Positions 3,127 to 39,407 of a stretch of DNA of 64,000 bases are shown piece after piece. Position 1 is the first letter of the stretch; the number at the start of each line of letters is the position of its first letter. The DNA is taken from positions 62,001 through 126,000 of the forward strand of contig PAVO01000055.1 in NCBI GenBank assembly GCA_002713215.1, read 5' to 3'. The position numbers and the translations under genes were made by a program. The stretch is from Crocinitomicaceae bacterium. Lineage in GTDB: Bacteria > Bacteroidota > Bacteroidia > Flavobacteriales_G > Salibacteraceae. The notes under the pieces were generated by a model. That model saw only the letters and a program-made list of their open reading frames with translations. It had not been told where the DNA came from and ran no database searches.

Positions 3127-3960
3127 ATGTTGAAGTTCATTCGGTTCATATTCACAAAGAAATTCTGGGTCAATATTGCGGTATTCCTTGTCTTGTTTGT
3201 TATTGGAATTTGGGCATTGTTTTCACACCTGGGTAGTCGAACCCTGCATGGTGAGGAAATTAAAGTGCCGAGGCTTATCGGGTTTCATGTTTCCGAAATA
3301 AAAAACTTACTGGAGCAAGATGGATTAAACTATGCGGTAATGGATTCCATTTACGTGGAAAAATCAGCCGGCGGAATGGTGGTTGAACAAAACCCCGACT
3401 CAGGGATGTTAGTAAAAAACGGGCGAAAAATTTATGTCACATTAAGTTCTTACACCGCTCCTAAAATTCCCGTTCCCAACCTCAAATGGGATCAAAAAAG
3501 AAATGTAATTGCTCAACTTTCATCAATGGGCTTTAAAATTGGTAATATCCGATATATACCCTCAGTTTGCGAGGATTGCCTGGAACGCATTGAAATTGAT
3601 AGCGTGGAGCTAAAATCTGGAACACGACTCGATATTGGAACAGAATTGGATTTGGTGCTTGGAGGGGGCTCCTCTGATCAATTTATTCCTGTTCCATACT
3701 TGATTGGCACACCACTTCGAGCATTGGAAAATACAGTAATAAACACAGGGCTGATTTTAGGGTCTGTTGTGCTCGATGAGGAAATGAGTTCGGAAGACTC
3801 TTCTCAAGCCATGGTATATAAGCAAAGCCCAGAGCCTGGAACTGAGGATGTTCACCTGGGAACAGCTATGACTGTATTTGTTTCTACTGATTACAATAAG
3901 CTGCCAAAAAACGAGTTAGATAGTGCATCTCAAACGGAACAGTATGAGCAAGTCGAATAA
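3127..3960 (+). CDS. PASTA-domain inner-membrane protein
   Basis: A 277-residue protein with a short cytoplasmic tail, one transmembrane helix at about residues 14-35, and a periplasmic part made of three PASTA repeats (about 45-113, 115-182 and 184-255; recognisable by the VP.L.G start of repeats 1 and 3 and by QNPDSG/QSPEPG). PASTA domains bind peptidoglycan or its precursors in kinases and penicillin-binding proteins; here no kinase or transpeptidase domain is attached. I chose the ATG at 3127 over the TTG at 3118 because the latter lies in the promoter box. The next gene starts inside its last codons. The position next to ddl suggests a cell-wall-related role, which is inference. Confidence 0.85.
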   Translation: MLKFIRFIFTKKFWVNIAVFLVLFVIGIWALFSHLGSRTLHGEEIKVPRLIGFHVSEIKNLLEQDGLNYAVMDSIYVEKSAGGMVVEQNPDSGMLVKNGRKIYVTLSSYTAPKIPVPNLKWDQKRNVIAQLSSMGFKIGNIRYIPSVCEDCLERIEIDSVELKSGTRLDIGTELDLVLGGGSSDQFIPVPYLIGTPLRALENTVINTGLILGSVVLDEEMSSEDSSQAMVYKQSPEPGTEDVHLGTAMTVFVSTDYNKLPKNELDSASQTEQYEQVE

Positions 3961-6142
3961 AGCGCTAATTGCTGCTATTGTTTTTTTTATTTCCTGGACA
4001 TCTGGTATGGCCCAGGAGGAGCTTGGTAATCTCTGGAACAGAAGTGCTACAGGAGTTTATTTGGAAAACTCCGAACAACAGTATATCGATGCTGAACGAG
4101 CAGAAGAGGATGTAAAAATCAATTACCTATTTAACACGCTTGAACTTCCGGTTGTTGACGATTTTGCGAAGTACAAAATAAAGTACTTTGTGACCGACAC
4201 AAATCATGCTTCTGTGTTTGATTCCCTTACCTACACTTTTACCGAAAATGGCAGCTATACGGATACACTACGTTATGTAACGGATACCGTTTACAACTAC
4301 ATTTTCAATCCTTCGACTCAAAAACTGGATTCAAGCATTGCTCCTCCGATTAAAATTAGATTTTATCTCGATACAACTAACAAATTTGTTGCATCGGACA
4401 GTTTAATTGTATTTCCAAATTATTCAGTAATCACTCAAAATGGAATTAGTAGAAAGCAATTCTATCAAGAGGATAGTGTTTTGGTGAATAAAATAACCAA
4501 GCACTATTTCGCATACGACGATGATCGGTCTTTATGGATATCGGAAGGTGGGTTTTGGAACCGAACCATGGGACTTAATCCTCCAACAGTAGGTGTAATA
4601 ACTTTCGATGGCCTCAATTCGGATGGTAAACCCTATGATAATTCAAGCAGATTAACTTATGGAGCGGCAGACCGGTTCACTTCAAAACCCATTAACCTTT
4701 ATGGTGATAACACAGGTAGATATACAAGTTCGGACAGTATCTATTTAAGCTTCTATTATCAGCCTTATGGAAACGGAGACCAACCTGAAGTCGAGGACTC
4801 GCTTGTTCTTGAATTTTACAGCCCCGTTCAAAAAAGATGGAACATTGTATGGAGTAAGAAAGGAGATACATTACAGGAATTCCAGCAAGTATATTTTCAC
4901 ATGGCAGATACCATATATTTACAGGTCGGGTTCCAATTCCGATTTAGAAATTACGCTACACTTTCCGGAAACTTTGACCATTGGCACGTGGATTACATTA
5001 GGCTTGCTAAGGACAGGCGAAAAAATGACCATATGGTGGACATTGCATTTACCAAACCAATTAGAACCTTTCTAAAGCATTATACCTCAATTCCATGGAC
5101 CCACTATAAGGCAAAACCCTATTCGTATGTTGCCGAAAACGTAACCTATCATCTTCGAAACCTTGATACGGCTACCGCCTTGGCTCCATCTGATTACAAA
5201 GTGCATTTAAATGGACAGGTAAATCCATTCTTTAAATCAGAAGTGCTAATAAATATTGCCGCTCCTGCTAACACCACATTTACTGAAGTGCATTCTGTAA
5301 ATTCAGCTCCTAATAACTTTATCTTCCCAATAGATACTAATGAAAGGCAATTGTTTGAAATAAACGCAAGATTCTCAGGTGCAAATGACCAATTGCCGGA
5401 AAAAGAAAATGATACACTAAAACATGTACAGTTATTTGACCGCTATTATTCCTATGATGATGGATCAGCTGAAAAGACTTATCACCTGAATCTTGTTGGA
5501 ACAACCGTGGTAATTGAGTTTAAGACTCCTATTTCAGATACGTTGAAATCGGTAATGATTAATTTCGTTGAAACCTTTGAACCACCCAGCAGTCAAAAGA
5601 TTAACATCGTGGTATATAAAGATCTAAATAGCTCTCCGATATACCAATCCGGGCCGGTGGATGTAATCTATAATGCCGAGGGCAAATTTCACCGATACCA
5701 CATTGACCCTATTGTGGTTGAAGGCCAGTTCTATGTGGGATATCAGCAACTGGATCAGAACAAAACTTTCGTGGGATACGACGTAAACTACAATAACCAG
5801 GGAAGAACGTATATCAGTCAGATCGATGGCGACTGGACCAATTCCATTTTCCTGGGTACTACAATGATTAGAGCCAGCTTTGGAGACGGCTCGGAAGAAC
5901 CATTATCAAACGAGCAAGTTGTATCTGACAATGATCAACTTGAATTTTACCCCAATCCGGCTCAAGATTGGATCAAATTCAAACAGGAAGTCAACTCCGA
6001 TATTGAGGTGTATTCAATTGGAGGCAAACTGGAAATGAGGGAATACGTTATAGACCATCTTAATATCTCAAACCTTCCCAATGGTTTTTATTTAATTCGA
6101 TCAAATAAAAGTGAAGTATCGAAATTGATCATTAATCGATAA
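3944..6142 (+). CDS. T9SS-secreted surface protein, function unknown
   Basis: A 732-residue exported protein. It begins with a signal peptide (basic start, hydrophobic core, likely cleavage after GMAQ near residue 24) and ends with a type A T9SS sorting domain in about the last 65 residues (FYPNPAQDWIKF, SIGGKL, LPNGFYLIR, SKLIINR). The middle has no catalytic motif I recognise; it is rich in beta-type, aromatic and Asp/Thr segments (for example FDHWHVDYIRL) like jelly-roll surface proteins. The start ATG at 3944 overlaps the PASTA gene by 17 bases, so translation is probably coupled. The GTG at 3923 would extend the N-terminus ahead of the signal peptide and is less likely. Followed after three bases by rluD. 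Confidence 0.85.
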   Translation: MSKSNKALIAAIVFFISWTSGMAQEELGNLWNRSATGVYLENSEQQYIDAERAEEDVKINYLFNTLELPVVDDFAKYKIKYFVTDTNHASVFDSLTYTFTENGSYTDTLRYVTDTVYNYIFNPSTQKLDSSIAPPIKIRFYLDTTNKFVASDSLIVFPNYSVITQNGISRKQFYQEDSVLVNKITKHYFAYDDDRSLWISEGGFWNRTMGLNPPTVGVITFDGLNSDGKPYDNSSRLTYGAADRFTSKPINLYGDNTGRYTSSDSIYLSFYYQPYGNGDQPEVEDSLVLEFYSPVQKRWNIVWSKKGDTLQEFQQVYFHMADTIYLQVGFQFRFRNYATLSGNFDHWHVDYIRLAKDRRKNDHMVDIAFTKPIRTFLKHYTSIPWTHYKAKPYSYVAENVTYHLRNLDTATALAPSDYKVHLNGQVNPFFKSEVLINIAAPANTTFTEVHSVNSAPNNFIFPIDTNERQLFEINARFSGANDQLPEKENDTLKHVQLFDRYYSYDDGSAEKTYHLNLVGTTVVIEFKTPISDTLKSVMINFVETFEPPSSQKINIVVYKDLNSSPIYQSGPVDVIYNAEGKFHRYHIDPIVVEGQFYVGYQQLDQNKTFVGYDVNYNNQGRTYISQIDGDWTNSIFLGTTMIRASFGDGSEEPLSNEQVVSDNDQLEFYPNPAQDWIKFKQEVNSDIEVYSIGGKLEMREYVIDHLNISNLPNGFYLIRSNKSEVSKLIINR

Positions 6143-25446: not shown

Positions 25447-26808
25447 ATGATACTTGAAGATCTGGGCTTGGAATTGGGTCTTGGGGCACTGTATTTCATA
25501 CTAATACTCCTCTGGCTGTTTTTCTATACCTCAACTAAACGAGATCCTATTTTCAAGTACTTCCGATGGGGTATGGCTTTAAAACTGGTGGGAGGACTAT
25601 CATTCGCTCTTATCTATAAGTTTTATTATGGATACGGAGATACTTTTACTTATTTCACGAGTGCCCAAATACTTGGACAAATTATTATCGATGAACCAAT
25701 CTATGGTTTAAAATTGGTGCTTAACATAACCGATTATGTACGAGCTGAAGACTATCTCTATAATCATATTCTGGTAAATTACTTTAATGGTGCTGATACC
25801 TTTACGGTTATTAAAATTGCAGGGCTGCTTTCAATTCTGGGAGCAGGTTTGTTTCTTCCCACGACCTTATTCTTTTCAATTTTCGCGTTCCTTGGGCAAT
25901 GGAAACTTTATTTAACCTTCGTTAGAAGGTATCCACACCTAAAATTCGAACTGGCCCTGGCTCACTTTGCTATTCCATCGGTAATTTTTTGGGGTTCTGG
26001 TGTAATGAAGGATTCGTTGGTTTTAGGTTTTTTCGGGTTTCTCGTTTATTATATCGATATGGTACTTTTTCAAAGGAAGTACAAGACCATCTACGTAGCA
26101 TACATACTGGCCACGACTTATTTAATTTACCTCATTAAAGGTTACGTAATTATAGCTTTTCTACCAGCGTTCCTAAGCTGGATCTTCTTTGCGTTTAATG
26201 CAAAAATTAAGAACGTGGTAATCCGGGTATTTATCTTTCCCTCGTTAATTGTAGGGTTAAGTGTAGCCAGTTTTTATTCTTATTTCTTAATTGAAAATTA
26301 TGATGAGAAGTATAGCTCCGAAAATCTATTGAATCGGGCATACATATACCAGGTTAACCATTACTCAGAAAATGACATTGAGGGAACCCGGTCGGGCTAC
26401 ACATTTGGCCAGTATGAAAAGACACTTCCAGGAATGGCCACACTTATTCTTCCCTCGATTAACGTAACGCTTTTTAGGCCCTATCCCTGGGAAATAAAAA
26501 ATGCGGTAATGGGCATAACCAGCATGGAAAGCCTGTTTATTTCCTTGTTTTCGCTTTTTGTAATATTTCGGATTAAGTTTAGGCGCTTAATGAGGTATTT
26601 AGGAAGCGATTCATTTCTAATCATGTCCATTGTTTTTACACTGGTGTTCTCCTTTATTGTTGGTTTTTCATCCTACAATTTTGGAGCGTTGGCGAGATAC
26701 AAGATTCTATGCTTACCATTTTACATTAGCACACTTTTAATCCTTACCAAAGAAGATCAAATACGGGAAAGCCTTAAACAATTTCCTTCTCGAAATACTC
26801 AGCGATAG
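25447..26808 (+). CDS. Polytopic membrane protein of the polysaccharide locus, candidate Wzy-type polymerase
   Basis: A 453-residue protein with roughly ten hydrophobic helices spread over its length and a hydrophilic loop at about residues 285-350 (ENLLNRAYIYQVNHYSEND, GTRSGYTFGQYEKTLPG). No motif of a known enzyme is visible. Wzy O-antigen polymerases are recognised mainly by this kind of topology and by location among glycosyltransferases and flippases, and this locus has no other polymerase candidate. That role is inference; a membrane glycosyltransferase of another family is the main alternative. Its last 35 bases overlap the 3' end of the convergent double glycosyltransferase gene. Confidence 0.6.
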   Translation: MILEDLGLELGLGALYFILILLWLFFYTSTKRDPIFKYFRWGMALKLVGGLSFALIYKFYYGYGDTFTYFTSAQILGQIIIDEPIYGLKLVLNITDYVRAEDYLYNHILVNYFNGADTFTVIKIAGLLSILGAGLFLPTTLFFSIFAFLGQWKLYLTFVRRYPHLKFELALAHFAIPSVIFWGSGVMKDSLVLGFFGFLVYYIDMVLFQRKYKTIYVAYILATTYLIYLIKGYVIIAFLPAFLSWIFFAFNAKIKNVVIRVFIFPSLIVGLSVASFYSYFLIENYDEKYSSENLLNRAYIYQVNHYSENDIEGTRSGYTFGQYEKTLPGMATLILPSINVTLFRPYPWEIKNAVMGITSMESLFISLFSLFVIFRIKFRRLMRYLGSDSFLIMSIVFTLVFSFIVGFSSYNFGALARYKILCLPFYISTLLILTKEDQIRESLKQFPSRNTQR

Positions 26809-29062
26809 TATTGAGCTCAAAATCCTTAATTCTATCTTTGGATTTGGAGGCATATTGACTCAGTAACTCAGCATCGTGAACCAGGTTAAGGATTGCATCA
26901 GACAGTGACTGTATGTTGTTGCTTGTATAAAGAATTCCAAACTCTTCTCTGGCAAATCCTCTACTAAGAATCTCATATTCATTGGAGTTCGGTGCTAATA
27001 ACTCCCTGGGCCCACTTAAGCAATCGGATGAAATAATCGGCAAAGAATAAATCATTGATTCCAGCAAAACATTCGGAAATCCTTCATGTAATGATGACAA
27101 AATGAAAATGTCAGCCTGTTGATAATACTTCTGAAGGTCACTCGTAAACGGAAATATTTTAACCCGATTTTCAATACCTAATTCCTTGGACAATTCCTGG
27201 ATACTTGTTTTTTCCTTTCCATCACCAATTATTAGTAACCTAAAATTAACCTGGTCTTTAATGTTGCTAAGGGCACGCAAAACCAACTGATGGTTTTTAT
27301 TTTTATCCAACCTCCCAATACATAAGAAGGTAACTTCATCATTAATCTTAGTATTTCGATTGACTGCGTCAATCCCGGTTTTTACGGGATTATATATGGT
27401 TCTTAGCTTGTTTTCGCTGATTCCAAAGTTTAAGTTTAAATCCTTCCCGGTTGCTTTGGAATTCGTTATAATTAAATCTGCTTTGGGGTATTGCCTCCTT
27501 ATCAGGTATTTACTTACCCTGTTCTGAAACGAGCTGCCTTCATACTCTAAGGAACTATAACTCCTTTCACTTACAACAACTTTTAACCCGGGAACATTCT
27601 TCTTCACACCACAAGCAATGTAGTTGGGCCTATTTAAGAAAGATAAAAGCGTGTGTATTTTTCGATTTCTTACTTCTTTGGCTAATTGCTTTATGTAAAA
27701 TGGAATATCAAAAAACTTAACAATGGGTAATTCGCTGTCAATCAATGGTTTTTGTAGAACAACAACCTCAACGTTTTCGGGAATTGAATACGAAATTCGA
27801 TTTTCTAGTAAAAACAAGGTCACCTTGTATTTTGCAACCAAATAGTTGGCCAGAATGGAAAGTACCTTTTCCGCCCCCCCACCCTGCAGGGAAATACAAA
27901 ACAATCCAATGTGAGTTTCTTCTTCTGTATCCGGAAGGCACTTAGAATAAAACTCAAGGGTAGTATCCACCATTTTATCAATGGAAAATTTATCCTTTAG
28001 GGTGTCATAAGCATTGTTCCCAAATTCAATCCTCTTTTGAGGATCATTGTAAAATACCTGGAGTTTTTCAGCAAACAATTCCACATCAAAGGGGGGAATC
28101 ACAAATCCGTTGAATTCATTGATTACCACTTCATTCAATGCGGCTACATCAAAACATATTACCGGCTTTTTGAAAGCAAATGCCTCAATGGCCACCAATC
28201 CAAAACCCTCAGATTTTGAAGGAACAAGAACAACGTCTGAATTCGCAATGATTGAATTCGGATTATCAACATAACCCATAAAATTTACCTGACCACTTAG
28301 ACCCAATTCTTTGGTTAATTCTTGTAAATAATTTAGATATTCTCCACTACCGGCAATGTTTAATTCAAAATTTACTTTGTTCTGTTTTAATCGATAACAT
28401 GCCCCTAACGCAAATTCATGCCCCTTTAAGTCAAACAACCTACCCAAAATGAGCAGGTTTAGTTTTTTCTCTTTCCTTTCGGAGATTAGTGGTAACGAAC
28501 CTTCAATCTTTATTCCATGAAATATAGTGTCAATTCTACCCGATTTAGCAATTCCATAGCGAACAAACAAATCCCGTAAACCCATGGAAACGGCAAATGA
28601 ACGGTTGATCCATTTCTCAGAAAAACGAGCAATTAAATAGTACAGACTCTTAACCGGTTTCTCTTTTTCAAGTCCAAACTTCTGCATAAATGACTCATCA
28701 TAACCGTGTTTGGTACTTACCAAAACAAGTTTAGATTGGAAGAGCATCTTTACAAGAGAACAGTAAAAATCTGCATGTATCAAATGGCTGTGTACAATAT
28801 CCGGGTTCGAATTGGATATGGTTTTACGAAGGCCATTTAGTGTGGTTAAAGAGAAGTATCCGGTAGTATTAATTAAATGCGTTCTTACACCCAATTTTTG
28901 GAGTTCTTTTGTGAATGAGGCAATATCCGATAGATGGATCTTTTCGAACAAAACCACAAACTCTACTTCATGGCCTTTTGAAAGCAGGCCCGGAAATAAA
29001 TTCAAGAAATATTTCTCTGATCCTGCCAGCCCTTTGACTTTTTGTACGAAAAGTAATTTCAT
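26774..29062 (-). CDS. Bifunctional protein: two GT4 glycosyltransferases fused in tandem
   Basis: A 762-residue protein made of two complete GT-B enzymes. Module 1 (about 1-375) has GLAGSEKYFLNL near the N-terminus, the nucleotide-sugar site with LNLLILGRLFDLKGH, and the E-x7-E motif at E285/E293 (SEGFGLVAIE). Module 2 (about 384-762) restarts the fold with SLQGGGAEKVLSIL, continues with FLCIGRLDKNKNH and has its own E660/E668 (HEGFPNVLLE). Both keep the catalytic-site motifs, so both are probably active and may add two successive sugars to a lipid-linked glycan at the cytoplasmic face. Sugar donors cannot be read. It starts four bases inside the end of the preceding GT4 gene and is the last gene of the operon. 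Confidence 0.88.
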   Translation of the reverse strand: MKLLFVQKVKGLAGSEKYFLNLFPGLLSKGHEVEFVVLFEKIHLSDIASFTKELQKLGVRTHLINTTGYFSLTTLNGLRKTISNSNPDIVHSHLIHADFYCSLVKMLFQSKLVLVSTKHGYDESFMQKFGLEKEKPVKSLYYLIARFSEKWINRSFAVSMGLRDLFVRYGIAKSGRIDTIFHGIKIEGSLPLISERKEKKLNLLILGRLFDLKGHEFALGACYRLKQNKVNFELNIAGSGEYLNYLQELTKELGLSGQVNFMGYVDNPNSIIANSDVVLVPSKSEGFGLVAIEAFAFKKPVICFDVAALNEVVINEFNGFVIPPFDVELFAEKLQVFYNDPQKRIEFGNNAYDTLKDKFSIDKMVDTTLEFYSKCLPDTEEETHIGLFCISLQGGGAEKVLSILANYLVAKYKVTLFLLENRISYSIPENVEVVVLQKPLIDSELPIVKFFDIPFYIKQLAKEVRNRKIHTLLSFLNRPNYIACGVKKNVPGLKVVVSERSYSSLEYEGSSFQNRVSKYLIRRQYPKADLIITNSKATGKDLNLNFGISENKLRTIYNPVKTGIDAVNRNTKINDEVTFLCIGRLDKNKNHQLVLRALSNIKDQVNFRLLIIGDGKEKTSIQELSKELGIENRVKIFPFTSDLQKYYQQADIFILSSLHEGFPNVLLESMIYSLPIISSDCLSGPRELLAPNSNEYEILSRGFAREEFGILYTSNNIQSLSDAILNLVHDAELLSQYASKSKDRIKDFELNTIAEYFEKEIV
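26794..26812. terminator. Small hairpin across a convergent overlap
   Basis: AATACT and AGTATT form a six-pair AT-rich stem around a seven-base loop that contains the first base of the membrane-protein stop codon, inside the double glycosyltransferase coding region. Weak by itself; listed because hairpins recur at convergent junctions here. Confidence 0.25.
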
Positions 29063-30174
29063 AAATTTCTAAAAAGTTCAAGGTATGAATCCATCATCTT
29101 CTTATTTGATAGGTTGGTTTTAGCGTAGTCTAGCGAGGCATCACCCAGTTCACTACGTGTGGTTTCATTTGAAATAAGGCTTATTATAGCTTCACTCAGT
29201 TTTTCAGCGTCTTCCACGGGAACAAGTATACCATTCTTTGAATCCTCGATTACATTATTAATGCCTGAAACGTCGGAGGCAATTATTGGTAAACCACAGG
29301 CCTGAGCCTGCATAATGGATGTACTCATAGTCTCTCCAAATGAAGCATGAACATAAATATCTAACTGATTTAAAGCATCGGGAATTTCTTCTTCGCTAAT
29401 CGCTCCAGCAAAGTCCACTTGGTCTGCCAAACCTAATTCAGATGAATACGATTCCAAAGAAGACCGAGTGGCCCCATCGCCATAAATGGAGAGATGTACC
29501 TGCTTATTTGCTGTCAATTTAATTATAGATACTGCTTTAAGAAGCGTTTTATGGTCCTTAATATCTACCAAACGGCTTAGCATACCAATCCTTATGGTAT
29601 CAGTCAAATTAGGTCTCTTATCGGGCTTGAAAAAAGTAAGGTCAATTCCATTTGGTATTACCCAGGACCTTCTCGAATTGTAGAACAACAACTTCCTGTG
29701 CTCTATTTCTTCTTTGTATTTCGTAGATAAAAAAACAATGGCATCTGAAAATGGCAATGCAACCTTTAGAAAAAGCCAATCTTTTTTGGTCTTTAAATGA
29801 TTGGCCTGTGTTTCCCGAATGACCATCCGAAGCTCCTTAACTGAGAACACTTTTACCAACCAGGCCATCAAGGACAAGTAGCTTCCATGTAAAAAAAGTA
29901 CTTCTGGCGATTCTCTCCTTACTTCCCTAAATACCTTAAGAAAGAACAATAAATCGATTCCTCTATTTTTGGAAATCACTTTGTGGGAAAGTCCCAGTTC
30001 ATTGCATTTATCGATATAACTTGACCTAACTTTTTCGATTCCATAAAAGATGGGAACATGAACAAATTCACTATTTTGACTTGCTTTTACCATAGAAAAG
30101 AAAACGCTTCCATGACCGCCAATTCCTCCGTAAAGCAGGTGCACAACTTTTTTCTGTCTTACTGATTTAGTCAT
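29059..30174 (-). CDS. GT4-family glycosyltransferase
   Basis: A 371-residue GT-B enzyme. The N-terminal domain begins VVHLLYGGIGGHGSVFFSM, with the glycine loop of acceptor-side GT4 domains; the C-terminal domain has IRIGMLSRLVDIKDHKTLL and the E-x7-E region at FGETMSTSIMQAQACG, where the second acidic residue is replaced by Gln (E..Q), a modest departure from the usual motif. No membrane helix or signal peptide, so it works in the cytoplasm, probably on a lipid-linked glycan. It lies 30 bases after the GT2-transglutaminase gene and overlaps the double GT4 gene by four bases. Donor and linkage are unknown. Confidence 0.88.
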   Translation of the reverse strand: MTKSVRQKKVVHLLYGGIGGHGSVFFSMVKASQNSEFVHVPIFYGIEKVRSSYIDKCNELGLSHKVISKNRGIDLLFFLKVFREVRRESPEVLFLHGSYLSLMAWLVKVFSVKELRMVIRETQANHLKTKKDWLFLKVALPFSDAIVFLSTKYKEEIEHRKLLFYNSRRSWVIPNGIDLTFFKPDKRPNLTDTIRIGMLSRLVDIKDHKTLLKAVSIIKLTANKQVHLSIYGDGATRSSLESYSSELGLADQVDFAGAISEEEIPDALNQLDIYVHASFGETMSTSIMQAQACGLPIIASDVSGINNVIEDSKNGILVPVEDAEKLSEAIISLISNETTRSELGDASLDYAKTNLSNKKMMDSYLELFRNL

Positions 30175-30204: not shown

Positions 30205-31806
30205 TCAAATTAAGTTTAAAACCTGGATAATTTTTCTTTTCCAATAATACCTCGACACATAGAAGACTGCCAGTGTCGGAATACTTGCATACCAGGCCCA
30301 CAAACAAAATCGATTGAACCATTCCAGTTGATTAAAAAAATTTATGTTCTTATCCATTATTATAACCTCAGATAAATCACCGAGTGCAACCTCCGCATTT
30401 TTTCGAACGGCAATTCTGTTTCTACTGTACAATTCAAAAAAACTGAGATGTTCATCATTATCTGGGTTCTCTTTTACAAATACAGTATTCGTTGGATCAA
30501 AGTAATGCCAATTATCGTTGTAGAAAAGTTCGATGGCCACATGGTTACTAAATACAACGTAGCGATAATTCAATTTTAATTTTCGGGCAATATCTGCAAT
30601 GAGTTTGCTCTGTTGACCACAGAATGCATCATCACTATGCTCAAAAAGAAATTTTGAATCACATACCTGACTAATTCCTGGATGAATGGTATTAATTAAA
30701 TAACTAATTGGGTTTTCATAACACTTGTATGGCCTGTATTTAAAATTAAAACTGGAAGACACCAGTTCCACTACCCGCTGTGCCGTTACTTGAGGTTCCG
30801 ATTGTTGGCAGTTTGTCACTGACTCTTTAAAATCTCGTTTCGACTCATAAGTCTCTACTACAAACAGAACATTGATTAATAGATAAACACAACCCACCAT
30901 CAACAACACCGTTTTGATGGGCTTCTTCAAGAAAACAAATATTCCATACCGGAACACGCGAAGGCTATTTTTTGAAAGAAAGAAAGCAGGCTTCTCTATT
31001 AATGAATTCCAATACCATTGCATGCCTTTACCAAAATGACCTGCTATTAACAACTTAATAGCCACCATTTGTAAAAATGAAGATCGGATTATGCTCACTT
31101 CACCAGAACTGATTGTATCATTGGAAATGATTTTGTCTGACAGTACTTCCAGCTGCCCTTCCCAATTTTCAATATCTACAGAATGCATGCTTCTATCTGC
31201 ATGATTGATGAGGCTGTATGTGTGGTAATTGAAATAATGTAATTCTGTTTTTTTTGAAATCTCAAGGAGCAGTAACCGATCTTCCGATCCAGCTAATCTT
31301 CGATCTTCTACAAAAGGGTTATCTAAAGCGAATTCTCGTTTTAAGAAAAACGCGGAAGCACAAACATTCGATCGAAGGATAATACGCGGGTCGATCGCCT
31401 CACCAAAATCGGGATTAAGTGGTGCCAACTCACCTGTTTCGTTCGATTTTATTCCGGTAAACAAAAAACTGGGATACTCTTTTGTCTCAATACCCTTCTT
31501 TGCTAATTCTAAATGTTCCGGATCAATCAGGTCGTCCGAATCCAAAAAGAAAACATAGGTTCCGTTTGCCCGTTGAACTCCGTGATTTCTTGCTGCCCCA
31601 CGTTCTTTGTTTTCCTGATAGAAATAAGTGATCCGGCTATCATCTAATTGATTTACTACCTCAGCCGTATTATCTGTACTTCCATCATCAATGATAATTA
31701 ACTCAAAGTCTTTGAACGTTTGCTTCAGGCTACTTTCTATGGCCAGGGAAATAAATTTCGCCCGGTTATAGACAGGAATTATTATTGAAAAAAATGGAGC
31801 GTTCAA
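30205..31806 (-). CDS. GT2 glycosyltransferase fused to a periplasmic transglutaminase-like domain
   Basis: A 533-residue two-domain membrane protein. Residues 1 to about 230 are a GT-A family 2 glycosyltransferase: FSIIIPVYNRAKFI, IIIDDGSTDNT and the metal-binding FLDSDD at 88-92. A transmembrane helix follows at about 297-317. Residues about 340-475 carry a transglutaminase-like core with a complete Cys-His-Asp triad: C396 in AFCGQQSKLIADIARKL, H422 in SNHVAIELF and D437 in WHYFDPT. A second helix (about 498-519) ends the protein. The predicted topology puts the glycosyltransferase in the cytoplasm and the transglutaminase-like domain in the periplasm. Such folds act as transglutaminases, proteases or amidases; the reaction here is unknown. 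Four-base overlap with the preceding gene. Confidence 0.85.
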   Translation of the reverse strand: MNAPFFSIIIPVYNRAKFISLAIESSLKQTFKDFELIIIDDGSTDNTAEVVNQLDDSRITYFYQENKERGAARNHGVQRANGTYVFFLDSDDLIDPEHLELAKKGIETKEYPSFLFTGIKSNETGELAPLNPDFGEAIDPRIILRSNVCASAFFLKREFALDNPFVEDRRLAGSEDRLLLLEISKKTELHYFNYHTYSLINHADRSMHSVDIENWEGQLEVLSDKIISNDTISSGEVSIIRSSFLQMVAIKLLIAGHFGKGMQWYWNSLIEKPAFFLSKNSLRVFRYGIFVFLKKPIKTVLLMVGCVYLLINVLFVVETYESKRDFKESVTNCQQSEPQVTAQRVVELVSSSFNFKYRPYKCYENPISYLINTIHPGISQVCDSKFLFEHSDDAFCGQQSKLIADIARKLKLNYRYVVFSNHVAIELFYNDNWHYFDPTNTVFVKENPDNDEHLSFFELYSRNRIAVRKNAEVALGDLSEVIIMDKNINFFNQLEWFNRFCLWAWYASIPTLAVFYVSRYYWKRKIIQVLNLI

Positions 31807-32762
31807 GATTCTAAAATATGACCCAGAACCTTCATAGAATGACCTATGGTGAATTTGTTTTCAACTATTTGTCTAGGAGTAAAATGATCCAACTCCAACA
31901 TTATGGAGTCAAATTTATCTTCAAAATCATCCGTACCTTCAAAAGTTCTTCCCAATTGATCACTCAGGTATGGGCAACTGGATGCTTTGTTATAAGTATA
32001 TCCTTGATATTTCCACACCCCCGGATCGAAGTGAAACGTTGGAACGTTACAGCTCCATGCCTCAAAAATAGCTAGCCCCTGGGTTTCTGTTTTAGATACA
32101 AAAATGACCAATTGGGAGTTGAACAATGAAGACTTAAACTGTTCAGGTGTATAGTTTCCACAAACGATTTCTTCAAATTCGATTCCTTTATTAGTCAATA
32201 TTTTTTTGATCTGCTCAGATACTTCTGGGTTTGTCTTAGAGTAGACCAAAACCTTTTTCCCGTTGCTATTTTTAGGTCTCACCCAGTAGTTTGTATCCAC
32301 GCCACAAAACCAATTGAAATTTTGTTTCAATTGAACCTTTTCCGAAAATGACTTAAAAAGCTCTTGATGCCATTGGCTAAAGAATACCAACTTATCAATT
32401 CTTTCGTCTTCAACAATAGCTTTTCTCTCTGCCGGGTGATTTACAATAAAAGGACCTGCTGTTATTTTCAGTTTTGGATCCTTCTTCTTTTGTTCAAGCG
32501 CCCATTCCAAAGCCAACACGTCTTTAAACACGTAAATCTGGTCGATACCAGTTGCATTTAATTCATTGATTCGAGCTATGCTTTTATAATTTGGTAAATG
32601 CTCCTTTACAATAGAAGGCATGCTCTTGGAGCCTCCCGTTTTTCTATTCTTAAATACTTCCCTCCAACTACCATGGAGAACCCCTTCTTTCAAAAAAATC
32701 TTGCAAAAGGTAATCACCTGCTCAACAAAGGACCTGGGATATTCGTCAAGAAAGAGTATCAT
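31803..32762 (-). CDS. Divergent GT4-like glycosyltransferase
   Basis: A 319-residue soluble protein. The C-terminal half resembles a GT-B donor domain: KKVLVYSKTNPEVSEQIKK, followed by LVIFVSKTETQGLAIFEAWSCNVPTF with the E-x7-E spacing of GT4 enzymes. The N-terminal half is short and lacks the usual glycine-rich loop; FNWFCGVDTNYW corresponds to the linker. The family is probably glycosyltransferase, but acceptor and donor are unknown. I chose the ATG at 32762 because it overlaps the FkbM stop as ATGA; a start at 32777 would overlap further. It passes to the GT2-transglutaminase gene by another four-base overlap. Confidence 0.72.
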   Translation of the reverse strand: MILFLDEYPRSFVEQVITFCKIFLKEGVLHGSWREVFKNRKTGGSKSMPSIVKEHLPNYKSIARINELNATGIDQIYVFKDVLALEWALEQKKKDPKLKITAGPFIVNHPAERKAIVEDERIDKLVFFSQWHQELFKSFSEKVQLKQNFNWFCGVDTNYWVRPKNSNGKKVLVYSKTNPEVSEQIKKILTNKGIEFEEIVCGNYTPEQFKSSLFNSQLVIFVSKTETQGLAIFEAWSCNVPTFHFDPGVWKYQGYTYNKASSCPYLSDQLGRTFEGTDDFEDKFDSIMLELDHFTPRQIVENKFTIGHSMKVLGHILES

Positions 32763-33619
32763 ATTTCGCAATAACAATCAAAGTGGAACTCTGGTCCAAG
32801 TTCTAATTCACTACTAAAATACTCTCCTGATTGAACATTAAAAAACGAATAGCCAAAAGGTTTTAAATAATCAATGATTTGCTGTACACTGGCATTATAT
32901 CGTTGTAGGTTATTTCGATCAAACTCAATAAATAGCTTTGGTTTAAACTTTTCCAATATTGCCGTTGCCCCCATCAGCACCTCAAATTCAAAACCTTCCG
33001 TATCAATTTTAATCAACTCTATTTTTTCCAGGTTCAATAACTCCTGGTCCAGGGGAACGACTTCAACATCCTTACCCAGATTCTCCTCGTCTTTGACAGA
33101 GACAAGCCGATCCATTCCTGTATTGTTGGAAGAAGTTCTTGCCATACGCATTACTCCGGGTTCACTACCGCAGCCCTTCCCTATTAGCGTACAATTCTCG
33201 ATCGATGACTTATTCCTAAGAACGAGATCCAAACAAACCTCATAGTTATCAGGGTTCGCTTCAAAGGAGTATACTTTACCAGTAGGTCCAACCTGCTTTG
33301 AAAATAAAGTGGTCAAAATGCATTTATTGGCGCCGACATCCACTACAACATCGTTCTTCTTAATCTTCGAAAAAAGAAATTCATGAGCTTCATCTTTAAA
33401 CCCCCAATAAAACCACCAATCCATAAGGTCAGACAGGTCTAATCGGTAACTTATTCCATCCCTTTTGATCTCTCTTACAGAATTGGATTTCGAATACAGT
33501 TCAGGCATGGGCGCCATTCTATATCGAATTGAACCCTCGGTAGCATTTTGGGTTATTTTCTGCAAAACGCTTCCCAATTGTTCGTGACTAAACAACTTCC
33601 TAATTCCGTTAAGATTCAT
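32759..33619 (-). CDS. FkbM-family methyltransferase (second of a tandem pair)
   Basis: A 286-residue SAM-dependent methyltransferase. VVVDVGANKCILTTLFSKQVG is the SAM-binding motif, in which the usual glycine after GAN is replaced by Lys-Cys, and LIKIDTEGFEFEVLMGA with KLFIEF is the FkbM signature. FkbM proteins usually O-methylate hydroxyl groups, and in polysaccharide loci they probably methylate sugars. It overlaps the preceding FkbM gene by 11 bases and the next gene by four. The pair share the same fold but differ enough to suggest different positions or sugars, which is inference. Confidence 0.87.
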   Translation of the reverse strand: MNLNGIRKLFSHEQLGSVLQKITQNATEGSIRYRMAPMPELYSKSNSVREIKRDGISYRLDLSDLMDWWFYWGFKDEAHEFLFSKIKKNDVVVDVGANKCILTTLFSKQVGPTGKVYSFEANPDNYEVCLDLVLRNKSSIENCTLIGKGCGSEPGVMRMARTSSNNTGMDRLVSVKDEENLGKDVEVVPLDQELLNLEKIELIKIDTEGFEFEVLMGATAILEKFKPKLFIEFDRNNLQRYNASVQQIIDYLKPFGYSFFNVQSGEYFSSELELGPEFHFDCYCEI

Positions 33620-34553
33620 TTTTTAGTGCAATTAAATCGGTATGATCTTCTATTTGAGAAGCCTGTTCAACTGGTTTTCCCGTTTTTGCAGAAACCAGAT
33701 TATAGTTAAATGACTTGAGGAACTCAACCACTTCTTTCCCGGTATATCCAAAATCCTTGAAATTGGATTCGCTAAACTCTAAAAACAAAGTGGGATTTTT
33801 CCTTTCCAAAAGCTCTTTAGCGCCCTTTAAAACGGACAACTCCATACCTTCCACATCTATTTTAATCAGGTCTACTATTTCCGGGATTTCCTTATGATCG
33901 ATTAAATGATCTATGGTTTTTACTTCAACCTGAACCATTCCTTTTTCCCGGGCCTGACCATTTACCGATTGAAGCTGATCCGCCCCCTTATTTCTTTCCG
34001 TCCTTCTTCTAACAGTCATTTGGGTTAGGTGGTCTGAAAGGCCAATATTAAGCCCGGTAACGTTTAAGTCGGGATTGAGTTTACAATTATAATCCAGGGA
34101 TTTATAGGTAGAAGGGTTGGCCTCTACGGCATATACGGCGGCTTCTTTACCAGCCAATCGAGACATGTTTAGAGCGGTTTCACCAACGTTAGCACCTACA
34201 TCCAAAATCGCTTTTTTGTTTCTGGCAAGCCTGTATAGAGCTTCCCGGTTTTCTATGTCATGACCAAAGTAGATGAGCCATTGCATGTGGTCCGAAATAT
34301 CGACCTCGAATTTCACTCCCTTTCTTACAATCACCCTTCTGGTTGGTTGTTTATAGTTGGCATTGTCCGGAATGAATTTACAAAGAAAGTAGGTGGAAGG
34401 TTTTCCTGCCACCAATGAAGGAAGCAACTGATCAATTCCTAAGAGTGCAACACAAGTCCGAACCCATTTTCCAACCATCCGGCAAATAACGGGAGAAACT
34501 TGTATTAATACAATGCTTGTTATCTCTTTATTTCGGAACTGTTCTAATTGCAT
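33609..34553 (-). CDS. FkbM-family methyltransferase (first of a tandem pair)
   Basis: A 314-residue SAM-dependent methyltransferase. AILDVGANVGETALNMSRLAG is the SAM motif, AVEANPSTYKSL the second motif, and LIKIDVEGMELSVLKGA plus TLFLEFSE the FkbM signature. Residues 1-90 form an extra N-terminal region, partly hydrophobic at about 10-50, that may contact the membrane or acceptor. It is the first gene of a six-gene minus-strand operon running to 26774. It diverges from the flippase with only 55 bases between starts, so the two promoters must be close together or overlap. Acceptor unknown; most likely a sugar hydroxyl of the locus glycan. Confidence 0.87.
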   Translation of the reverse strand: MQLEQFRNKEITSIVLIQVSPVICRMVGKWVRTCVALLGIDQLLPSLVAGKPSTYFLCKFIPDNANYKQPTRRVIVRKGVKFEVDISDHMQWLIYFGHDIENREALYRLARNKKAILDVGANVGETALNMSRLAGKEAAVYAVEANPSTYKSLDYNCKLNPDLNVTGLNIGLSDHLTQMTVRRRTERNKGADQLQSVNGQAREKGMVQVEVKTIDHLIDHKEIPEIVDLIKIDVEGMELSVLKGAKELLERKNPTLFLEFSESNFKDFGYTGKEVVEFLKSFNYNLVSAKTGKPVEQASQIEDHTDLIALKNES

Positions 34554-34608: not shown

Positions 34609-35889
34609 TTGTTTTTAAAGAGTCTTTCTTTTGTTCTTTTATCTGCAATAAGCACTATTAGTGGAATCATTTTATTTCCATTATTCATCAAATATTTAGA
34701 ACCTGTTGAATTTGGCTATTACAGCCTTATTGTTTCCTGCACGGCTCTCGCCACCTTACTTTCCGGCTTAGGGCTCTACAACGGAATGAGCAATTTTTAC
34801 TTTGATTTTGAGTCTGATGAACGAAAAAAGCTCCTAAACAACCTCTTCTCAGGTTCCGCCGTACTCAATCTTATTCTGGCATCGGTATTTGCAATAATTA
34901 TTTTTCTTCTGGGCATCTACGATTTTAAAATAAGTACACTGCTTAGCCTGGCTATTGTTCTGGGCTTTGCGGATTCATTAAATGCACTGTTCTTTCAGTT
35001 TCTTCGAAACGAGGGCAAAAACAAGCGTTTTTTAGTGCTAAGCACCATTAGTATTATCACCAACCTGGTAATCACCTCAGCTATGCTTTTCTTTGGTTGG
35101 GGGCTTTGGAGTGCCGTCCTGGGAAAGCTTATGGTGTCAGGCGTTCTAATGGTTTTGATTGCCCTTCGATATATCCGTTTTGAAATAGACCAATCCTTTC
35201 TGAAACCAATAATGAAATACGGAGTTAAGCTTGTTCCTGTTTTGCTCTTTGGTTGGGTTTTCCAGTTCTCTGATCGCTTTTTAGCTGAGTACTTTTTAAT
35301 TCCTCAGGTATTTGGAAATTTCGGATTTGTTATTTCGGCTTCTGCGCTTATAATGACCGGTTTTCTGGCCATTGGCAATTCCATTCAACCCGAACTTTAC
35401 TTTGCTTTTAAAGAGGAAAACAACCAACAAGTTGGTAAGGTAGTAAGGCATTACATTTTACTCATTCTGGCCGGAGCCTTTGTGGGGTTAGCCATATTAT
35501 GGGGTATTCATACCTATTGGGCGGGATTTAAATACTACGACAGTATTCCTGCATTGGTGCTGTATGCCGGTGGATTTTTCCTTTTAGCATTCCAGCATTT
35601 ATACAACATGGAACTTATCTACCTGAAAAAGGTTAGGGTCATAACCATTTACCAAAACCTGAGTTATGCCAGTTATTCCATCCTGCTTTTTGGAATCTTT
35701 AGTGTTGGTTATCTTGATTTAATGTATCCGGCGTATTTATTTTTTGGTACGCGAATTCTAATTATGGGGTTCTACTTTGTTGGACAGATGAAGTCGTCCA
35801 AAATAATTTTTAGCAATAAGAAGGTTCTTATATTGAGCCAAATTCTGTTGGTTGCACTTATTTGCCTTACTTACTTCTTAACTGTTTGA
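34609..35889 (+). CDS. Wzx-type polysaccharide flippase
   Basis: A 426-residue membrane protein with about twelve hydrophobic helices and the MOP/PST flippase pattern: LSFVLLSAISTISGIILFPLFIKYLEPVEFGYYSL at the N-terminus, the usual GYY region after helix 2, and FSDRFLAEYFLIPQVFGNFG in the middle. It should move lipid-linked repeat units across the inner membrane. A stop codon directly precedes the TTG at 34609 and no ATG occurs before the first helix, so the start is rare or slightly later. It stands alone on the plus strand within the minus-strand locus and its 3' end overlaps the convergent methyltransferase by 12 bases. Confidence 0.87.
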   Translation: MFLKSLSFVLLSAISTISGIILFPLFIKYLEPVEFGYYSLIVSCTALATLLSGLGLYNGMSNFYFDFESDERKKLLNNLFSGSAVLNLILASVFAIIIFLLGIYDFKISTLLSLAIVLGFADSLNALFFQFLRNEGKNKRFLVLSTISIITNLVITSAMLFFGWGLWSAVLGKLMVSGVLMVLIALRYIRFEIDQSFLKPIMKYGVKLVPVLLFGWVFQFSDRFLAEYFLIPQVFGNFGFVISASALIMTGFLAIGNSIQPELYFAFKEENNQQVGKVVRHYILLILAGAFVGLAILWGIHTYWAGFKYYDSIPALVLYAGGFFLLAFQHLYNMELIYLKKVRVITIYQNLSYASYSILLFGIFSVGYLDLMYPAYLFFGTRILIMGFYFVGQMKSSKIIFSNKKVLILSQILLVALICLTYFLTV

Positions 35890-37502: not shown

Positions 37503-39407
37503 TTACTTCATCCATTGAACATGCCACTGGTGAAACATAAACAGGAACCAAACTGGGTTAAAATCCTCATTTCTACCTGAAATATAATTCGCTTTTAAAT
37601 TTTCTACAGCAATTGGATTAAAAACACCTACCGCTTTCACCCTGGATTCACTTAAGGTATCTTCCAATAATTCCCTTAAGTCAGATCGCATCCACTCTTT
37701 AACCGGAACCGAAAACCCTTTTTTGGGCCGATCCATCATTTCTTTAGGCAAGTATTTATGGACAATGGATTTTAGCAAGTACTTTTTTTGCCCGTTTTTT
37801 ATTTTTAGGTGTTCCGGAACCCCAGCCATAAACTGAGCCAGGTTATGATCCAGCAAAGGTTCTCTTCCTTCCAGCGCAACAGACATAGTGGCTCGGTCTA
37901 CTTTGGTCAGTATATCATCAACCAGGTAAGTTTTATAATCCAATGCCAACAATTGGTTTAAGGGCGACAGTTGTTCATACGCAGATTCAAACAAATCGTA
38001 GTTTGAATTTCGAGGGGCTGTACTTTTGTTAAGCAGCAACCTCAATTCTTTATCCAGAACATTTTGGCTACTCAATTTCATAGCCCGATACGGAGCAACT
38101 CCTTCCTTAAGAAGGTCAACCGCTCGCTTATACCGTCTATCGAAATTAAATCCTGATCCTAAACTCTTTGCCACCGGTGTAGCCAGGTTCAAAACAGAAC
38201 CACTCAATTTTTTAAATGGAAAATGAGACAACACATTGGCGTACTTCAATGAGGTTGGATATTTACCATAACCTCCAAAAAGTTCATCTCCTCCATCGGC
38301 ACTCAGCGAAACCTTTACATGTTTCTTTGCCAGCCTACTTACCAACAGCGTTGGTATTGCGGAACTATCTCCAAAAGGTTCATCATATATACGACCCAAT
38401 TCCGGAATTATGCTTTTAGCATCGCTAAAAGTGCAGTACTGTTCATGATGTTCCGTTTCCAAATAATCGGCAACCTGCCTGGCATAGTTAGCTTCGTTAT
38501 ACGCTGCTTCCTCGAAACCAATGGTAAACGTTTTTATGTTTTCATTGTGATGTTTTTGAAGTAGTGCAACTACAGCAGAACTATCGTATCCTCCACTGAG
38601 AAAAATCCCTACCGGAACATCGGAAACCATTCGATATTTAAATGCCTTAACCAGTAAATCTTCCAGTTCTTCAGCAATTTCTTTTTCCGGTCTATCAATA
38701 ATTGGTTTAGAAAAATGATCCAGAATTTCCCAGTATTTAGATTGGTCAATTGTTTTCGATTTAATACTCAGTTTTACAACGTGCCCGGCCTTAACCTTGT
38801 AACAGTCTTTAAAAACTGTATTCGGTTCCGGGTAATAACCGTATTTGAGAAATAACGCAGTGGAGTCAGTATCCACCTCCTTATTAAACCTTGGATGGTT
38901 CATCAATGCCTTTAATTCTGAGCCAAATAGAAACAACCCTTCTTGAAAAGAATAATAAAGTGGTTTAACCCCAGCCCGGTCCCTAACCAAATTGAGTTCT
39001 TTTTGCTCCCGATCGTAAATTGCAAAAGCAAACATGCCAATGAAATGTTCAACGCAGTCGCTGTTCCATTTTTCCCAGGCTTTTAATACTACTTCGGTAT
39101 CCGATTCAGTTGTAAATTCTTCTCCAAGATCTTGCAGTCTGCGTCTTACTTCTTTGAAATTGTAAATCTCACCGTTAAAAACCAGGTAATAACGTTGATC
39201 CGAAGTCCACAAAGGTTGGTTCGACCGTTGGTCCAAATCTATTATGGATAGTCTTTGATGTGCTAATCCAATGGCCGCGGTTTCGCTTTCCAATAGCTCA
39301 CGTCCTGCTGCATCAGGACCCCGATGAGTAATAGAATCACCCATAAACTTCAGTTCGTCATGCGAACTTGCACCATTAAAATCAACAAAGCCAGCAATAC
39401 CACACAT
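37503..39407 (-). CDS. asnB: Asparagine synthase-type glutamine amidotransferase
   Basis: A 634-residue enzyme. Translation from the ATG at 39407 places Cys2 (MCGIAGF) as the class II glutamine amidotransferase nucleophile after Met removal; the longer frame upstream would bury it, so this start is certain. The N-terminal domain has RGPDAAG and NGEIYNFKEVRR; the synthetase domain has the ATP pyrophosphatase loop FLSGGYDSSAVVALL and SADGGDELFGGYGKY. Members of this family inside polysaccharide loci often amidate uronic acids instead of making free asparagine; which applies here is inference. Its start shares one base with the flippase stop (TAATG). Confidence 0.92.
   Translation of the reverse strand: MCGIAGFVDFNGASSHDELKFMGDSITHRGPDAAGRELLESETAAIGLAHQRLSIIDLDQRSNQPLWTSDQRYYLVFNGEIYNFKEVRRRLQDLGEEFTTESDTEVVLKAWEKWNSDCVEHFIGMFAFAIYDREQKELNLVRDRAGVKPLYYSFQEGLFLFGSELKALMNHPRFNKEVDTDSTALFLKYGYYPEPNTVFKDCYKVKAGHVVKLSIKSKTIDQSKYWEILDHFSKPIIDRPEKEIAEELEDLLVKAFKYRMVSDVPVGIFLSGGYDSSAVVALLQKHHNENIKTFTIGFEEAAYNEANYARQVADYLETEHHEQYCTFSDAKSIIPELGRIYDEPFGDSSAIPTLLVSRLAKKHVKVSLSADGGDELFGGYGKYPTSLKYANVLSHFPFKKLSGSVLNLATPVAKSLGSGFNFDRRYKRAVDLLKEGVAPYRAMKLSSQNVLDKELRLLLNKSTAPRNSNYDLFESAYEQLSPLNQLLALDYKTYLVDDILTKVDRATMSVALEGREPLLDHNLAQFMAGVPEHLKIKNGQKKYLLKSIVHKYLPKEMMDRPKKGFSVPVKEWMRSDLRELLEDTLSESRVKAVGVFNPIAVENLKANYISGRNEDFNPVWFLFMFHQWHVQWMK

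Follow-up and report, generated by a model that had tools for sequence, protein, structure and literature searches.

A glycosyltransferase joined to a membrane-anchored transglutaminase-like domain in a Bacteroidota polysaccharide locus, from a gene family linked to AsnB

We analysed a stretch of 64,000 nucleotides of DNA, referred to here as the window. It contains a polysaccharide locus in which one open reading frame joins a GT2 glycosyltransferase, a transmembrane (TM) helix, a transglutaminase-like (TGL) domain and a closing helix. The main features are listed below, with the four parts of the fusion protein given after it.

25447-26808, plus strand: membrane protein of 453 aa without Pfam or NCBIfam match, a candidate polysaccharide polymerase that recurs in many related loci
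26774-29062, minus strand: two GT4 glycosyltransferase units in tandem in a 762-aa protein
29059-30174, minus strand: GT4 glycosyltransferase, encoded directly downstream of the fusion (domain search)
30205-31806, minus strand: GT2-TM-TGL-TM fusion protein, 533 aa, TTG start (open reading frame, Pfam and GT2 alignment)
30931-31806, minus strand: GT2 glycosyltransferase domain, residues 1-292, DSDD at 89-92 (PF00535, 2e-32; alignment with separate GT2 proteins)
30856-30918, minus strand: first TM helix, residues 297-317 (hydropathy peak; helix in the AlphaFold model)
30472-30714, minus strand: TGL core, residues 365-445, with Cys396, His422 and Asp437 (conserved columns, AlphaFold model, structural matches)
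30241-30309, minus strand: closing TM helix at about residues 500-522, ahead of a tail with positive charge (AlphaFold model and hydropathy)
31803-32777, minus strand: weak GT1/GT4-like protein, next gene upstream, overlapping the fusion gene by 4 bp (domain search)
32759-34553, minus strand: two FkbM methyltransferase genes (domain search)
34609-35889, plus strand: Wzx-type flippase (PF01943)
37503-39407, minus strand: WbpS/eps_aminotran_1-like AsnB amidotransferase, with its start placed at MCGIAG (TIGR03108, 586 bits; MCGI start)

The AsnB gene lies seven genes away from the fusion. Its best NCBIfam match is TIGR03108 (eps_aminotran_1), with a score below the cutoff of 817 bits, and it is the best TIGR03108 match in its own genome. 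The start is very probably Met37 (MCGIAG), near 39407 and not 39515. As for the membrane protein at 25447-26808, relatives occur in 240 of 395 genomes of the class, beside polysaccharide genes in the loci seen, and many carry a GGDT motif. It represents an unnamed family of candidate polysaccharide polymerases. We rejected it as a specific TGL partner, given how common it is and its weak link with TGL (Fisher 0.03).

The order of parts in the fusion had been proposed in a preliminary description, and it is borne out by Pfam, the GT2 alignment, hydropathy and the AlphaFold model. The Pfam GT2 match spans residues 7-121, and the first 292 residues can be aligned over the full length with separate GT2 proteins from related loci. 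The DDGS, DSDD and ED motifs are conserved in this alignment, including the DSDD already proposed. Judged by sequence, the N-terminal part is a complete GT2 with a DXD-type motif. Its 292 residues resemble the GT2 enzymes of exopolysaccharide loci along their whole extent and in the motifs, but the window protein continues into a TM helix and a TGL domain.

A sequencing error was considered as the source of the fusion. The GT2 homology stops at about residue 292, just ahead of the helix that starts at 297 (alignment and hydropathy), and the two share one reading frame, with no remnant of a tail between them, so a simple frameshift is disfavoured. The GT2-TGL fusion is known from one assembly, in whose sequence the two parts are joined end to end.

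The C-terminal part gave little signal in direct searches. On its own it has a sub-threshold Transglut_core2 match (E 0.041), and a sequence search of solved structures returned no meaningful match. Among the 36 aligned family members, 20 match Transglut_core weakly (best 1.5e-5), with the window protein remaining sub-threshold. AlphaFold was run on the whole fusion as a single sequence (pLDDT 35.8) and on the TGL domain with a 36-row homologue alignment, where mean pLDDT was 80.7. Block means reached 87-93 over model residues 91-140, a region that holds the triad except Asp437.

Individual Foldseek matches of the TGL model were marginal (best E 1.5e-3). After structural re-alignment the top match was LapG (Z 9.9), followed by a Cytophaga protease (8.9) and TglA (8.8). 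Human transglutaminases scored Z 7-7.7, and vasohibins and the amide synthase ShGdmF were also listed. A Z below 8 is little proof by itself, and the listed matches (Z 7-9.9) consist almost entirely of TGL/papain-like or NAT enzymes. The comparison with transglutaminase folds that had been proposed thus gave LapG, TGL proteases and transglutaminases as best matches. In terms of catalytic residues, exact conserved columns hold Cys396 in 35 of 36 homologues and both His422 and Asp437 in all 36; Gln398 is likewise conserved in 36 of 36. Fold, triad order and triad conservation, taken together, make the assignment of the modelled domain to the transglutaminase superfamily, with an ordered Cys-His-Asp triad, secure. 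The TGL core and triad first described therefore stand, with residues 380-445 modelled as a TGL fold and the triad kept among homologues.

Relatives of the C-terminal half are stand-alone proteins of about 270-300 residues, with an N-terminal helix, the TGL domain and a C-terminal helix. This TM-TGL-TM family is small and is found in exopolysaccharide loci of the class Bacteroidia. A sample of the whole phylum contained no members beyond this class. Within the family and order of the window genome, no significant relative of the C-terminal half was found outside the genome itself. Plasmid records yielded no relative, and a search of genome contigs returned a GT2 relative only. In one bacterial family the gene is present in 30 of 87 genomes.

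Open frames of the relatives are at most 314 aa, with a single exception, so the GT2-TGL fusion is unique so far. No second case was found among these frames, in line with the earlier remark that no characterised enzyme is known to have this order. The exception (L028:9316-11046, minus strand) lies in a full polysaccharide locus and places a methyltransferase-like domain ahead of TM-TGL-TM. This copy has Pro in the catalytic Cys column, the sole exception to Cys396 among the 36 members, and is therefore probably an inactive pseudo-enzyme. The same search gave weak matches to longer TGL proteins of about 490-520 aa in Bacteroidia (L010, L014, L018 and L021), which probably form a different family.

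GT2 and methyltransferase domains work on cytoplasmic substrates. In both fusions found, such a cytoplasmic-type enzyme precedes the first helix. Furthermore, Lys and Arg across the family average 4.5 in the flank after the second helix, against 2.4 before it. These fused enzymes and the positively charged C-terminal tails argue well for a TGL domain that faces the periplasm, the side on which it had originally been placed.

A clear pattern is seen in the gene order of related genomes. A GT2 gene lies at position -1 of the TGL gene, on the same strand, in 21 of the 33 loci where the upstream gene is visible, compared with 7 of 422 at the other positions from -8 to +8. The window protein thus unites two genes that stand side by side in relatives. 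Descent of the window GT2 from TGL-adjacent GT2 proteins is not shown, as its branch is long and unplaced. On the other side, a WbpS/eps_aminotran_1-like AsnB gene follows directly (+1, downstream) in 18 of 36 TGL stretches, often overlapping or less than 50 bp away, and lies within ten genes in 28 of 36. The remaining eight have none nearby (L024, L026, L028, L116, L118, L120, L124 and L132), and the same holds for the TGL locus of genome G239; for several such loci an AsnB is found elsewhere in the genome.

The two genes also occur together across genomes. With the AsnB of one TGL locus as query and a threshold of 500 bits, AsnB turned up, within one bacterial family, in every one of the 30 genomes that have TGL and in 13 of the 57 that lack it (Fisher 1.9e-13, with relatedness handled only by a split into genera). 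Inside two genera, the counts for TGL-positive and TGL-negative genomes were 17/17 and 8/23, and 10/10 and 4/10. AsnB is also present without TGL, at times straight after the GT2 gene (the TGL-negative L151, L153 and L157), which makes TGL an optional third member of the run. The conserved unit is the GT2 - TGL - AsnB gene run and the fusion is one case. Of the proposal that centred on the fused protein, the fusion itself is real and the conserved form consists of three separate genes. The proposed AsnB linkage proved strong across genomes, and of the expected AsnB/FkbM neighbourhood the AsnB part is common while FkbM was seen in two related loci.

We found no description of the GT2-TGL-AsnB combination in the literature, and the known systems nearest to it each share part of its features. 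The TIGR03108 family includes WbpS and WbqG, which are needed for uronamide, and the WbpS of P. gingivalis gives glucuronamide (PMC7468200). The product of the window AsnB would, by its family, be a uronamide, which places the TGL gene in a polysaccharide locus with an amidotransferase of the uronamide-forming type. WbmE of B. bronchiseptica is a periplasmic transglutaminase-superfamily protein that deamidates uronamide-rich O chains (King et al. 2009, as cited in PMC3507681). It and the window TGL both belong to the Cys-His-Asp transglutaminase superfamily and both sit in surface-polysaccharide loci, and the window domain is probably periplasmic, as WbmE is. WbmE acts on sugar uronamides, which the AsnB partner in the window would be expected to make. 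Unlike WbmE, compared here by its description, the window TGL is held between two membrane helices and fused to a GT2.

On balance, and with modest confidence, we favour the reading that the C-terminal half of the fusion (about residues 297-533) is a membrane-anchored, WbmE-like periplasmic enzyme, joined to its partner GT2, that acts on the AsnB-made primary amide of the polysaccharide exported by this locus. In the cytoplasm, the WbpS-like AsnB would turn the carboxylate of a uronic acid into a primary amide, a uronamide, and the GT2 half would add a sugar onto the lipid-linked repeat unit. The repeat units would be flipped and polymerised before the TGL step. A primary carboxamide is also the natural acyl donor in transglutaminase chemistry. 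Cys396, activated by His422 and Asp437, may then attack the uronamide, releasing ammonia and leaving a thioester. Water would then resolve the thioester, giving a deamidation like that of Bordetella WbmE; resolution by an amine, giving a transamidation, is less likely. The presumed benefit of tethering is that the fusion would keep the periplasmic editing enzyme where the glycan is assembled. Cross-linking, amidation, trimming and protein coupling had all been suggested as roles. Trimming or exchange of the AsnB-made uronamide fits best, given the WbmE precedent, and amidation would be the task of AsnB.

In another reading, the TGL domain is a periplasmic cross-linking enzyme with true transglutaminase chemistry. 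It would pass the carbonyl of the AsnB-made uronamide to an amine, whether on a protein, on peptidoglycan or on a second chain, and in this way anchor or cross-link the polysaccharide. The GT2 and AsnB linkage and the co-occurrence apply equally to such cross-linking, and the structural matches include transglutaminases and ShGdmF. The periplasmic TGL domain of TgpA from Pseudomonas aeruginosa, itself among the structural matches, transamidates in vitro (PMC3507681). TgpA is likewise an inner-membrane protein, but it has six TM helices and a DUF3488 region, lacks a GT2 domain and is critical for viability (PMC3507681). We nevertheless regard cross-linking as unlikely, since WbmE, the closest glycan precedent, is a deamidase and nothing near the fusion gene stood out as a candidate for the amine acceptor. 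In a wider form of this idea, a single polypeptide would work on both sides of the membrane: the GT2 half adds a sugar in the cytoplasm, and the periplasmic half draws on AsnB-made uronamides as activated acyl groups for linking the exported glycan to proteins or other chains, so that GT2, TGL and AsnB would form a polysaccharide transamidase system. This seems more doubtful still.

The TGL domain could also be a cysteine protease or a regulator of glycan assembly. Like LapG or HvyA, it would cut a protein of the periplasm or envelope and thereby govern polymerisation, export or attachment. Its closest fold match is the protease LapG, and in Caulobacter the TGL-like HvyA, whose gene lies in the capsule locus, holds back capsulation in a triad-dependent manner (PMC4241560). 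LapG and HvyA share with the window domain the TGL fold and probably an envelope function. However, HvyA is a soluble periplasmic protein with no AsnB linkage reported in the passages of that paper covered here, and no LapG/HvyA-type Pfam match was found among the 36 members at E 0.1. A protease would also leave the AsnB co-occurrence (30/30) and the gene order unexplained, and we give it a low probability, on a par with cross-linking.

Finally, in lasso-peptide pathways a TGL protease works together with an AsnB-like enzyme. A similar pair, in which the TGL protease and an AsnB-like cyclase would mature a peptide, was rejected as highly improbable. The window AsnB does match the lasso cyclase model at 217 bits, but this is far below the cutoff of 525 and also below its TIGR03108 score. 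The TGL domain is membrane-embedded, the family members match Transglut_core and the neighbours are polysaccharide genes.

The enzyme kind itself has precedent under the preferred WbmE-like reading; what is new is the TGL family tethered by two helices, the association of this family with AsnB, and the fusion to a GT2. A family poorly recognised by Pfam and NCBIfam is now tied to a specific AsnB partner, of the uronamide-forming kind, and to a pathway step, which gives a testable function for many otherwise hypothetical genes. If this reading holds, surface glycans of these Bacteroidota are edited or cross-linked once assembled, by way of the amide that AsnB introduces, and in the window one protein works on both sides of the membrane.

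Amide editing could also bear on surface attachment, as related uronamide sugars attach type IX secretion cargo to the Porphyromonas surface (PMC7468200). A sorting tail for type IX secretion (PF18962) is present on the protein encoded at 3923-6142 of the window (plus strand), which makes it probable that the host possesses this secretion system. Lastly, hisH/hisF-like and WbpG-like genes are also present at three AsnB or TGL loci (L118:10422-12965, L145 and L150), which, judged from the starts of the sequences, suggests acetamidino sugars.
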